Virus record (IMG/VR): IMGVR_UViG_3300034103_001442
Location: 1-64,000 of that record
Length of the DNA stretch: 64,000 bases
Source of the DNA: a virus
Strand: one strand, 5' to 3'
Shown here: piece after piece, positions 47,064-51,156 of the stretch
Layout of the letters: each line of letters opens with the position of its first letter
How positions within the stretch are numbered: the stretch's first letter is position 1
The notes under the pieces: generated by a model
What the model was told of the DNA's origin: nothing
The model's database searches: none
The model's input: the letters and a program-made list of their open reading frames with translations, nothing else
Made by a program: the position numbers and the translations under genes

Positions 47064-47648
47064 TCAACTGAACGTTTCTTTCAATGCCTTCTTACATTTG
47101 AAAACGTTATACTGTACGAATGGTTTATACTTCAGACACTTATTATATATGCCTGGCCAAATAATGGTGTCTTCAATTTTCTTGTTCCAATATGGAAAAA
47201 AGTTGAAGATGTCATTCAGTATGATCAGGGTTTCAATGCTTATTTCTTTACGCAAAAACATCCTGAGTAAGTGTGGATGCTGTCCATCTTTAATTATAAT
47301 GTTTTCATCAAATTTAGTCAATAACTTTTTTGTCTCATTAGAAAAAATATATGTCAATGACTCCTGCTTTTTGAGCCAGTTGTTATAAATTTCCTCAGCA
47401 TCATCACTGAATAAGTCGCCAACCCACTTCAAATCACGTTCGACAAAGTTGGATACCAAAAATTTTTCAGCATCTTTATGCTTGCTCAGTCTATAAAACT
47501 GATACTTGTCTTTGCGTCGCTCAAATGAGTCACTGGTCGCTTTGACCTTTCCCTGGTACTTGAAGTAATCGTACCCACCGTCAAAGTGATATTTGAGAGC
47601 AAGAAATTTTTTATATGCTTCAAATGGACTCATACTCAATGAAATCAT
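47064..47648 (-). CDS. 59: DNA helicase loader gp59 (194 aa)
   Basis: Blocks MSPFEAYKKFLALKYHFDGG, YDYFKYQGKVKATSDSFERR, KDKYQFYRLSKH and FLVSNFVERDLKWVGDLFSD align with T4 gp59 (VYKLYLMIKQHMNGKYDVIKYN, RRDKYFFQKLSEK, FISNLVANQDAWIGD). T4 gp59 is 217 aa. It binds fork DNA and gp32 and loads the gp41 helicase. Overlaps gp33 by 4 nt (ATGA type), showing coupling. An internal ATG (MSPFEAY, 6 codons on) is an alternative start. Confidence 0.88.
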   Translation of the reverse strand: MISLSMSPFEAYKKFLALKYHFDGGYDYFKYQGKVKATSDSFERRKDKYQFYRLSKHKDAEKFLVSNFVERDLKWVGDLFSDDAEEIYNNWLKKQESLTYIFSNETKKLLTKFDENIIIKDGQHPHLLRMFLRKEISIETLIILNDIFNFFPYWNKKIEDTIIWPGIYNKCLKYKPFVQYNVFKCKKALKETFS

Positions 47649-47893
47649 ACAGGCAATTTAGCACGCTTTGGGAGGTAGTTCAAATTCTCATAGTCAGACT
47701 GAAGTTTTGACTTCATCTTTGGATTGCTTTTGACAATTGAGGCGGCAGTTTCAATCTCAATATTGTTTTTCTCGCAAAAGTGTACAACAGCATCCACATA
47801 TGTAATACCGAGGTCATTTACGATTTTATCAATCTCACGAATGAAATTTTCCGATGTCAGTGCTGTTTGCACTACCACTTCTTCAGTTTGCAT
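47645..47893 (-). CDS. 33: Late transcription co-activator gp33 (82 aa)
   Basis: A small acidic protein with FIREIDKIVNDLGITYVDAVVHFCEKNNIEIETA and a conserved C-terminus SDYENLNYLPKRAKLPV, the pattern of gp33 in marine T4-like phages. gp33 links gp45 sliding clamp to RNA polymerase at late promoters. Upstream of gp59 as in related phages; matches the many NATAAATA late boxes in this window. Confidence 0.82.
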   Translation of the reverse strand: MQTEEVVVQTALTSENFIREIDKIVNDLGITYVDAVVHFCEKNNIEIETAASIVKSNPKMKSKLQSDYENLNYLPKRAKLPV

Positions 47894-47894
47894 A

Positions 47895-48524
47895 TTACCC
47901 CTTGTAAAATAAATGATTGCCTATTTGTCTGACAAATTGTTTGGTCTTTGACCAACTAGGCTCAACATAGTCTGCATGAAAGAATGTCGCATTACCAATT
48001 ATACCGTAGTCACGTTTTAAAATCAATATGTTCTCAGCAATTTTCACGGATTCTTTCCATGATTGGTTACGTCGGACAATTTTGCCATCCTCGCAAACCC
48101 AAGAAAATTGACAAACACCCTTGACCTTTTGGTGAACAACACCACAAACTGTTCTTGGGTATTGTTTACTTTTGACACGGTTCATAGTCACTTCAGCGAC
48201 TGCGACTTTACCAGCATGCGGTTCGCCGCCAGCCTCAAAGTAAATATTTCTCGCCAAGCACTCAACTTCCTTCAGCACTGTCTTTTTCTTTTCATAAGAC
48301 AGGTTGAGAAATTCGACTTTATGATTCAACACTTCAAGTTCCGAAACAAGAAGTTCATTTGTTTCTTTTTGTGCTTCAAGTTTTTCTTGCATCCTGTCAA
48401 CTATGTTATAGGGTACAAACAGGGTGAAGAAAACTAGAGCAAAGAGTCCACCAAATCTCAAAAACAAATTATGATTTCTATCAAAATAGTTTTCAATACG
48501 ATGTAATGTGTCTACTGCATTCAT
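47895..48524 (-). CDS. SleB-type cell wall hydrolase with N-terminal membrane anchor (209 aa)
   Basis: Residues ~21-40 form one transmembrane segment (FLRFGGLFALVFFTLFV), 44-85 a coiled coil, and 88-209 a Hydrolase_2 (SleB) domain: CLARNIYFEAGGEPHAGKVA with the likely catalytic Glu97, VAEVTMNRVKS, VCQFSWVCEDG and ATFFHADYVEPSW. SleB-type enzymes cut peptidoglycan glycan strands. The single-pass anchor suggests a signal-anchored endolysin exported without a holin channel for folding. Two bases separate it from gp33. Likely the lysis enzyme; a virion role is possible. Confidence 0.85.
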   Translation of the reverse strand: MNAVDTLHRIENYFDRNHNLFLRFGGLFALVFFTLFVPYNIVDRMQEKLEAQKETNELLVSELEVLNHKVEFLNLSYEKKKTVLKEVECLARNIYFEAGGEPHAGKVAVAEVTMNRVKSKQYPRTVCGVVHQKVKGVCQFSWVCEDGKIVRRNQSWKESVKIAENILILKRDYGIIGNATFFHADYVEPSWSKTKQFVRQIGNHLFYKG

Positions 48525-48551
48525 GTGTATTTTGCCTCCATTATTGCAGTT

Positions 48552-48588
48552 GAAAGAAAAGGGTGGACAGTTTTTACACTGCCACCCC
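48552..48588 (-). terminator. Terminator of the tmRNA transcript
   Basis: Minus strand GGGTGGCAGT (48588-...) pairs with ACTG-T-CCACCC (one bulged base) around a short A-rich loop (48561-48588), followed by TTTTCTTTC (48560-48552). The hairpin closes the coding piece of the tmRNA and would separate it partly from the lysin gene downstream. Confidence 0.75.
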
Positions 48589-48830
48589 TGACTATTCTGT
48601 TACCAAGTAGTCAACTCTGGTATTCTTATACTGCTATTAAGCAGCAAGAGCCATGTCGTAATTGCTATCGTTTGCAGTTACTATTTTGCGCTGATTAAGT
48701 CAGTCGCCTCACTGGTAGCCGTCTGGTTATTACTTGCTCCGTCGAAACTGTGCACCCCCATAGTGGTGGAGGTGGTGGGAATCGCACCCACGTCCGAAAC
48801 ACTTTTAACAGTCAGTTTACTACCATTAGT
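48561..48830 (-). ncRNA. ssrA: Circularly permuted two-piece tmRNA
   Basis: Read leftwards, the acceptor piece comes first: GTTTCGGACGTGGGTGCGAT, a T-arm (GTGGG/CCCAC stem) and CCTCCACCA ending at 48764. After only CTAT, the 5' end of the coding piece starts at 48759 (GGGGGTGCACAGTTTCGACGG). These two ends form a 7-bp acceptor stem. The tag frame begins at GCA 48675 and reads ANDSNYDMALAA followed by TAA TAG. AATAGTCAG near the coding piece's 3' end pairs with CTGACTGTT of the acceptor piece, the helix that holds both pieces together. tmRNA with SmpB rescues stalled ribosomes and tags products for proteolysis. Ends of the outer termini are approximate. Confidence 0.9.
48637..48675 (-). other. 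tmRNA tag reading frame (ANDSNYDMALAA)
   Basis: Twelve codons from the resume codon GCA (48675-48673) to TAA (48639-48637), with a second in-frame stop TAG next. The tag starts AND and ends ALAA, like bacterial ssrA tags (E. coli ANDENYALAA); the hydrophobic C-terminus is what ClpXP recognises. UAGUAAC precedes the resume codon, as in bacterial tmRNAs. Confidence 0.88.
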
Positions 48831-48834
48831 TTGG

Positions 48835-48842
48835 TATTTATT
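48835..48842 (-). promoter_or_regulatory. Late -10 box AATAAATA upstream of tmRNA
   Basis: AATAAATA on the minus strand (48842-48835) begins just before the acceptor piece; expected transcription start about 48827-48830, matching the predicted start of the tmRNA precursor. The NATAAATA form is shared with virion gene promoters here, so the tmRNA may be made late. Confidence 0.6.
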
Positions 48843-48846
48843 TCAA

Positions 48847-49413
48847 TTAAAAAGGCGCATCCTCTTCACCCTTGAGCCAATTGAGAATTGTCTTTGGTGA
48901 AGTTTCGCCATATGGATCAGTTGGGCAGTTGTCCTTTTTGCCAGGCTCAATGAACCACTTTTCAATCTTACCGTTGTCAGCAACCACGGCATAACGCCAT
49001 GAGCGGTATCCAAAACCAAGGTTGTCCTTATCAACTAGCATTCGCATTTTGCTGGTGAAGTTACCACTGCCATCAGGAATGACTTTGACATTTTGAATGT
49101 TCTGAGCCTTTGCCCAAGCATTCATAACGAAAGCATCATTGACTGATACGCAATAAATCTCATCAACACCCTGCGCATTGAACTCTTCATACATTTCCTC
49201 AAACCCAGGCAACTGATAGGTTGAGCAGGTTGGGGTGAATGCACCAGGCAATGAGAAAACAACTACACGTTTGCCACCGAAATAATCATAGGATGAAACA
49301 TCCTCCCAGCGGTATGGGTTTGGTCCACCAACTGATTCATCGCGCACTCGAGTCTTAAAGACTACAGCAGGCAAAACCGTAGGCAAATCTTCTTCAAAAT
49401 TATCATCAAACAT
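48847..49413 (-). CDS. Peroxiredoxin, Prx5-like (188 aa)
   Basis: Thioredoxin-fold redoxin with the motif PGAFTPTCS (residues 56-64, peroxidatic Cys63), followed by FEEMYEEFNAQGVDEIYCVSVNDAFVMNAWAKAQ, typical of the Prx5/AhpE-like group, and a C-terminal RSWRYAVVADNGKIEKWFIEP. Reduces peroxides with thiol or glutaredoxin partners. Start chosen at ATG 49413 because GGAGGAAG lies 5 nt upstream; a frame 9 codons longer lacks such a site. It overlaps the HAD gene by 8 nt. As a phage auxiliary gene it could protect the infected cell from oxidative stress. Confidence 0.87.
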   Translation of the reverse strand: MFDDNFEEDLPTVLPAVVFKTRVRDESVGGPNPYRWEDVSSYDYFGGKRVVVFSLPGAFTPTCSTYQLPGFEEMYEEFNAQGVDEIYCVSVNDAFVMNAWAKAQNIQNVKVIPDGSGNFTSKMRMLVDKDNLGFGYRSWRYAVVADNGKIEKWFIEPGKKDNCPTDPYGETSPKTILNWLKGEEDAPF

Positions 49414-49996: not shown

Positions 49997-50025
49997 ATAT
50001 TACGGCATTTCAGAAATAAAGTCAA
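49997..50025 (-). promoter_or_regulatory. sigma70-like promoter of HAD gene, leaderless layout
   Basis: -35 TTGACT (50025-50020), 17-bp spacer containing TTATTTCTGAAA, -10 TAATAT (50002-49997), six bases, then ATG at 49990. Best match to sigma70 in the family, with the expected +1 on the A of the start codon. Confidence 0.8.
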
Positions 50026-51035
50026 GTGGTAAAAACTCTATTGTGAGTGTCGGTGCATCTTATGAACTCAACCTTGTCTGCAAATTGAGAAAGGTTGGCT
50101 GCACCTACGTAAGTGCATGCGCTTCTGAGCCCTCCGAGCAAGTCTCTGACCGTATTGGACACTGGTCCACGATAAGGTATGGTGACGGTTCTGCCCTCGC
50201 TACTACGGTAATCGGCAACGCCGCCATTGTGTTTGTTCATTGCGGTATCACTGCTCATACCGTAAAACATCACTTTACCATCAATGGGTTTCCTACAACC
50301 CTCATCATGACCAGCGAGCATACCGCCAAGCATTACAAAGTCGGCACCTGCGCCAAATGCTTTAGCAACATCGCCAGGAGAAGTGCAGCCGCCATCAGCA
50401 ATGATATGACCGCCCAAAACGTGAGCAGCATGAGCGCATTCGAGTACTGCTGACAATTGCGGGTAGCCCACTCCAGTTTGTAGACGAGTAGTGCACACAC
50501 TACCAGGACCAATACCAACTTTAACAATATCAACGCCATTCTTAATTAACTCCATTGTCATATCACCAGTGACAACGTTACCCGCAATGAGCGTGGTGGT
50601 TGGAAATTGAGTCCGCAAAATCCGAATTGTATCAATAAATGAATCCGTGTAACCATTAGCAACATCAAGGCAAATATATTGAGGTATGGATGCCTTGAAA
50701 ACTCTAGTCAGTTTTATCAGGTCATTATTATTAGTGCCAATTGAAATCGCAGAATTTGGTTTGGGTGATCTGAAATGACGAATCAATTCTTCTTCGCTGT
50801 AATGCTTAATCAAACAAGTGAACATGTTGTATTTGTCAAGTTCACTTTCCATATTAAAAGTGCCCACCCCATCCATGTTTGCTGCCATGATTGGAGTGCC
50901 AGTGTATTTTTTCTTTGAGTGCTTGAAGGTGTAATTTACATTCAAGTCAACTTCTGATCGTGACTTGAGTTTTGATCGTTTTGGCACAATCAAAACATCA
51001 CTGTAATTGTATTTCAATTCTTCAATTATTTTCAT
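50022..51035 (-). CDS. guaC: GMP reductase (337 aa)
   Basis: IMPDH/GMPR TIM barrel without CBS domains. Start [20 protein letters not shown] and end [20 protein letters not shown] ... [14 protein letters not shown] match E. coli GuaC ([49 protein letters not shown]). Catalytic loop [11 protein letters not shown] with Cys181. It converts GMP to IMP using NADPH, releasing ammonia, and so feeds guanine nucleotides back to the adenine branch. Start at the second ATG (51035), which aligns with the E. coli start and has GGGATG 6 nt upstream; ATG 51041 is an alternative. Confidence 0.92.
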   Translation of the reverse strand: [337 protein letters not shown]

Positions 51036-51156
51036 ATACATCCCAAAAAGAATTCGGTTTATCTCTGTTGGTGCGCATCCAACTTGATCCTACAAAACTA
51101 CCATCGCTGTGCGACAAACTCTACACCGAAAGGTTGAGCGGTAGGTTTTTATTTAG

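Follow-up and report, generated by a model that had tools for sequence, protein, structure and literature searches.

A complete circularly permuted two-piece tmRNA gene upstream of gp33 and gp59 in a large T4-like phage

Introduction

Two-piece tmRNAs of phages have been published before: one study of 402 phages listed 53 of them among 133 distinct tmRNA genes (PMC9004378), and another gave 79 phage tmRNA sequences of all forms (PMC11915505). Among the closest described systems is the Methylophilales phage Melnitz (MZ577097), a T4-like phage whose permuted tmRNA precedes gp33 and gp59 on the same strand. Its authors positioned the tmRNA upstream of gp33, called the gene early, matched it to the alphaproteobacterial type and reported a glutamine riboswitch (PMC9004378). 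In Pelagibacter phage HTVC008M, too, gp33 is preceded by a permuted tmRNA on the same strand. This tmRNA is of the alphaproteobacterial type (RF01849, 83.8 bits) with the tag ANFNEYALAA, and we located it at about 145120-145461 of KC465899 (2241-2582 of our locus L316), where it is unannotated and overlaps a called hypothetical protein; phage tmRNAs thus get missed even in annotated isolates. Mycobacteriophage DS6A carries a further phage-borne relative that consists of the tRNA-like domain only, without a tag frame.

Here we describe a permuted tmRNA gene in an IMG/VR virus record. It is of the RF01850 type and has a 4-nt intervening segment, a 12-residue tag with a complete frame and a late-promoter motif without a -35 box, whereas Melnitz has a long intervening segment, a 14-residue tag (ANDNYVPVDYALAA) and no endolysin gene between the tmRNA and gp33. 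In the literature that we searched, with incomplete coverage, there was no earlier statement of a general gp33 linkage, of a late-promoter motif or of a viral-only clade; the fixed place next to gp33 and gp59 and the late-promoter motif are what is new here.

Results

A complete permuted tmRNA gene

The window that we analyzed is a stretch of 64,000 bases from the 151,740-base virus record IMGVR_UViG_3300034103_001442. The record contains T4-type baseplate, tail-tube and tail-fibre genes in addition to gp33 and gp59, and the phage is a large, T4-like one. A sequence-only reading had proposed a phage-encoded circularly permuted two-piece tmRNA on the minus strand, and covariance models and ARAGORN bear it out. 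RF04321 (tmRNA_permuted) matched positions 48637-48824 over the full model (1-213) with 147.7 bits against a gathering score of 47 (E 3.4e-29), and RF01850 (beta_tmRNA) matched 48560-48860 (model 1-331) with 121.1 bits against 84 (E 2.5e-36), both on the minus strand. ARAGORN called a single permuted tmRNA at 48546-48856 on the same strand with the tag ANDSNYDMALAA and two stops. The gene is complete and runs from about 48830 to 48553 (Table 1). The T-arm and the 3' end come first and the 5' end second, the two termini form the 7-bp acceptor stem that had been described, and the tag frame (GCA AAC GAT AGC AAT TAC GAC ATG GCT CTT GCT GCT) is followed by TAA TAG. The coding piece comprises the acceptor 5' strand, the D-loop, the P2 5' strands, the PK1 region, the tag and a terminal hairpin. 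The alanine identity set (G3-U70, A73, CCA) is present, and the precursor fold has an energy of -96.4 kcal/mol (z -5.1 against shuffles).

Table 1. Features of the tmRNA gene and of the genes downstream of it
Feature	Position	Strand	Details and basis
T4-type late-promoter motif ATAAATA	48835..48841	-	directly after the redoxin stop codon
Acceptor (3') piece	48764..48830	-	P2 3' strands, T-arm, acceptor 3' strand, A, CCA; 5' end predicted
T-arm	48791-48775	-	GTGGG TGCGATT CCCAC
Acceptor 3' strand CACCTCC	48774-48768	-	sequence; then A
CCA end, encoded	48766-48764	-	sequence
4-nt intervening segment CTAT	48763-48760	-	between the CCA end and G1
Coding (5') piece	48588..48759	-	acceptor 5' strand to terminal hairpin; 3' end predicted
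Acceptor 5' strand GGGGGTG	48759-48753	-	7/7 pairs, including the G3-U70 wobble
D-loop with GTTTCGAC	within the coding piece	-	sequence
Tag frame ANDSNYDMALAA + TAA TAG	48675-48634	-	resume codon GCA; ARAGORN
Terminal hairpin of the coding piece	48588-48614	-	sequence, fold
Terminator-like hairpin, bulged, GGGTGGCAGT / ACTG-T-CCACCC, then TTTTCTTT	48553..48587	-	sequence, fold
Cell-wall hydrolase (endolysin), next gene downstream	47895..48524	-	PF07486, E 4.8e-26
gp33-like late-transcription coactivator	47645..47893	-	PF16805, E 4e-16
gp59-like loader of gp41 helicase	47064..47648	-	phrog_269, E 2.7e-54

The terminator-like hairpin was missed by strict terminator scans owing to its bulge; over the relatives, a strict scan gave a modest enrichment (12% vs 2%). 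In the T-loop (TGCGATT, 48780-48786), position 55 is G and not U, as it is in loci L115, L145 and L136. A G at this position counts against a functional reading, and it occurs in other viral and in alphaproteobacterial tmRNAs as well.

On the minus strand, the genes are ordered DUF932, COG2908 RNA, GMP reductase, an unknown protein, redoxin, tmRNA, cell-wall hydrolase, gp33, gp59 and carbamoyltransferase. The phage record encodes neither SmpB nor SspB, so these would have to come from the host. The Rfam COG2908 RNA (51099-51143, minus strand, 67.4 bits) lies directly upstream of the GMP reductase gene (50022-51041, minus strand; NF003470, 480 bits, cutoff 397), and this pair recurs in loci L016, L020 and L029. 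In L115 and L146, a related gene lies between the endolysin gene and gp33, and there is no COG2908 RNA match. A single cluster of 22 tRNA genes (G000 L004, 7350-12205), covering nearly all amino acids, is distant from the tmRNA.

A fixed place upstream of gp33 and gp59

Partial-pattern scans of viral contigs gave permuted tmRNAs, by a common rule, in 173 viral loci (131 distinct), and with the 53 two-piece tmRNAs already listed in PMC9004378 the statement that phage copies are rare does not hold. The examined stretch includes gp33 or gp59 in 67 of the 173 loci, and in every one of the 67 these genes follow the tmRNA on its own strand; in none do they lie upstream or on the opposite strand, with a median room of 3.4 and 3.5 kb on the two sides. 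Many of the 67 loci are related, and they are not 67 independent events. Both Melnitz and HTVC008M have this placement among the isolates. An endolysin gene lies between the tmRNA and gp33 in 34 of the 67. Three loci (L010, L016 and L020) belong to the same phage species as ours. In L028/L029, whose neighbouring proteins are mostly 72-94% identical to those of this phage, the tmRNA stands at the same place with a 44-nt intervening segment. Among the relatives gp59 is 28-79% identical to that of this phage (going down to 28-57%), and there is diversity in both the acceptor stems and the tags.

The position does show some freedom: in L030 (gp59 57% identical), a tmRNA of the alpha type lies about 7 kb upstream, still on the same strand. 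Nor is the arrangement universal in T4-like phages, because the stretches read of Caulobacter phage Cr30, S-SRM01, DLP_6 and AG-345-L05 have no tmRNA upstream of gp59. A blastn search of the tmRNA against named phages gave no match. In eight other loci (L263, L281, L285, L287, L311, L312, L126 and L150), an adjacent same-strand tRNA (tRNA-Gly, -Asn or -Leu) shares 20-45 nt with the tmRNA ends given by ARAGORN.

Selection on the structure

We aligned the structures of ten members of the nearest group (A1). The acceptor stem and the T-stem are paired in 100% of cells and the inner P2 helix, which adjoins the tRNA-like domain, in 98.6%, with compensatory changes that touch both sides of each helix. 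The whole structure scored 0.388 for covariation, a value that none of 500 shuffles reached (0.172 in shuffles). Acceptor pairs 5 and 6 occur as GC, CG, AT and TA among the 131 distinct viral tmRNAs; acceptor positions 1-4, G3-U70 included, were set there by the search patterns, which leaves positions 5-7 as the independent evidence. The acceptor stem of L028/L029 (GGGGAAG/CTTCTCC) differs from that of this phage in two pairs, each by matched changes.

The sequence-only reading had also joined the two pieces by a CTGACTGTT/AATAGTCAG helix. This helix pairs in 56% of cells in the ten relatives against 54% in shuffles, and we rejected it as having covariation no better than chance. Instead, AATAGTCAG closes the local terminal hairpin with TTGACTA, and compensatory changes are found there: TTGACTA/TAGTCAG in this phage, TTAACC/GGTTAG in L110 and TTGACC/GGTCAG in L155. 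Judged by the paired helices of the alignment, the two pieces are held together by the acceptor stem and P2.

A phage tag kept through codon changes

The tag end is of the ClpX type, and the frame has its resume codon and stops. This phage and L115 share all twelve tag residues, with synonymous differences in three of the codons. Among the gp33-linked viral tags, 54 of 54 end in Ala-Ala, with all four Ala codons in use, and L, I, M or V precedes this end in 53 of 54; ARAGORN may favour Ala-ending tags, and the alignment shows the same ending directly. Since the Ala-Ala end is kept while the codons vary, the comparison indicates that the tag is under selection as a translated degron. Compared with bacterial ssrA tags, ANDSNYDMALAA and its close variants belong to the phage group, whereas Rhodocyclales have ANDERFALAA or ANDEQFAIAA.

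The tag also bears on the reading of the RNA as a decoy, which would be charged or SmpB-bound and would serve to titrate the trans-translation of the host, a role that has been proposed for the tag-less DS6A tmRNA. A phage tmRNA of the tRNA-like domain only has been reported to inhibit the host RNA (PMC4131195; PMC11915505), but in the gene described here the tag frame is complete with its resume codon and stops, the PK1 region and P2 are retained, and the tag end is conserved through synonymous change, so that a decoy appears very improbable. With a complete gene and a structure and tag that appear selected, the phage very probably carries its own working ribosome-rescue RNA, as had been suggested.

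A late-promoter motif ahead of the gene

The motif ATAAATA stands about ten bases ahead of the P2 start. The octamer AATAAATA at 48842-48835 matches the T4 late consensus TATAAATA at 7 of 8 positions, and Melnitz has TATAAATA at the same place. Among 57 gp33-linked phage tmRNAs, 20 carry ATAAATA between -180 and -60 relative to the CCA end, mostly 71-93 nt upstream of it, against 1.9 expected from the motif density in the same loci. Within positions 1-53000 of the window, 11 of 14 coding-strand copies are found no more than 130 nt ahead of a gene start (1.0 expected), and the motif also stands ahead of the structural genes of this phage. Because most copies sit shortly upstream of gene starts, the phage very likely uses ATAAATA as a late promoter, and it encodes the gp33 coactivator for late transcription (PF16805), which acts with gp55 and gp45 at T4-type late genes. 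We infer from the motif that the tmRNA is expressed late in this phage.

The authors of the Melnitz study favoured early expression, in which a functional tmRNA would sustain hijacked translation or tag host proteins. Sigma-70 elements in several relatives speak for this, some of which have sigma-70 sites only, as does TTGACA-17-TATAAA in Melnitz. The Melnitz element reads in full as TTGACA-17-TATAAATA and fits both early and late use. Similarly, hybrid promoters that can be read as sigma-70 and as T4 late (TTGAC(A/T), 17 nt, TATAAATA) are found ahead of the tmRNAs in L174 (15980-16015), L223, L243 and L288. Against late expression stand the one-base deviation from TATAAATA, the share of carriers (20/57) and the sigma-70 or hybrid promoters elsewhere. 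However, no sigma-70-like site is found upstream of the gene in the window, and the late motif stands at the expected start and is shared with the structural genes; early expression therefore seems unlikely here, though it deserves more weight than a decoy.

Origin and host

The sequence-only reading had the gene acquired from a host with a two-piece tmRNA and offered it as help in naming that host; neither idea is supported. In a tree of 182 tmRNAs, which are short sequences with weak deep branches and include a small cellular sample picked by short intervening segments, the tmRNA belongs to a 12-member viral clade with SH-aLRT 99, in which nine of the tmRNAs are gp33-linked. This clade has no cellular member, so the tmRNA has long been a phage gene. 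Rhodocyclales tmRNAs form a separate clade of their own. They resemble the phage tmRNA in the RF01850 match, and an Accumulibacter has the same acceptor stem (GGGGGTG/CACCTCC) and the same CTAT segment, but their own tags are of 10 residues and differ from ANDSNYDMALAA.

A recent capture of host ssrA without a selected phage function, for example by imprecise excision of an ssrA-integrating ancestor, draws on the identity with Accumulibacter, on ssrA being a common integration site and on PMC9004378, which suggests such a route for Melnitz. The nearest relatives are nevertheless phage tmRNAs, most at the same locus; the coding piece is just about 0.6-0.76 identical to the sampled cellular tmRNAs; and place and structure are conserved among phages of the gp59 divergence given above. 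We consider recent capture highly unlikely.

We also rejected the idea that the 4-nt intervening segment is new to phages: about 58 of 61 pattern-matched viral loci have segments of 3-8 nt, as do Rhodocyclales and some Alphaproteobacteria, and the 4-nt length is common to Rhodocyclales and many phages. The RF01850 match shows the structural type only, which makes a betaproteobacterial host plausible and no more. In a bacterial survey aimed at the host order, just 9 of 200 genomes passed the cut-off, and no host is named on its basis. In two pairs of loci (L066 and L138, L069 and L132), a viral contig and a Hydrogenophaga or Dyella genome share identical or near-identical permuted tmRNAs, with an odd 18-residue tag in the Dyella case; these genome copies are possibly prophage-borne ssrA.

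Discussion

We consider it likely that the gene is a functional, long phage-resident and late-expressed permuted tmRNA that uses the SmpB and ClpXP of the host. Transcription would begin just ahead of the acceptor piece, at the putative T4-type late promoter, and would end at the terminator-like hairpin ahead of the endolysin gene. The subsequent steps are modelled on the known tmRNA class. RNase P would cut at G1, 3' processing would expose the CCA end, and loss of the CTAT segment would leave two pieces that stay together through the acceptor stem and P2. Host AlaRS would charge the RNA via G3-U70 and A73. Late in infection, host SmpB would deliver the RNA wherever a broken message had stalled a ribosome. 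The product would receive the tag A-ANDSNYDMALAA and be degraded by host ClpXP, and ribosomes would be freed for late phage protein synthesis at a time when host ssrA may no longer be transcribed.

More broadly, and tentatively, the permuted tmRNA may be an old inherited late-gene module (tmRNA-(endolysin)-gp33-gp59) in a broad T4-like group, run by phage late transcription and rescuing ribosomes after host transcription shutdown. It would give phage-specific tags with SspB- and ClpX-type signals spaced apart (AANDSNY-DM-ALAA), and would not have been passively acquired from hosts. The adjacency to gp33, the late motif and the selection on the tag lead to a direct prediction, namely that rescue would be late and gp33-dependent, and they would explain why phage tmRNA genes are poor indicators of the host.
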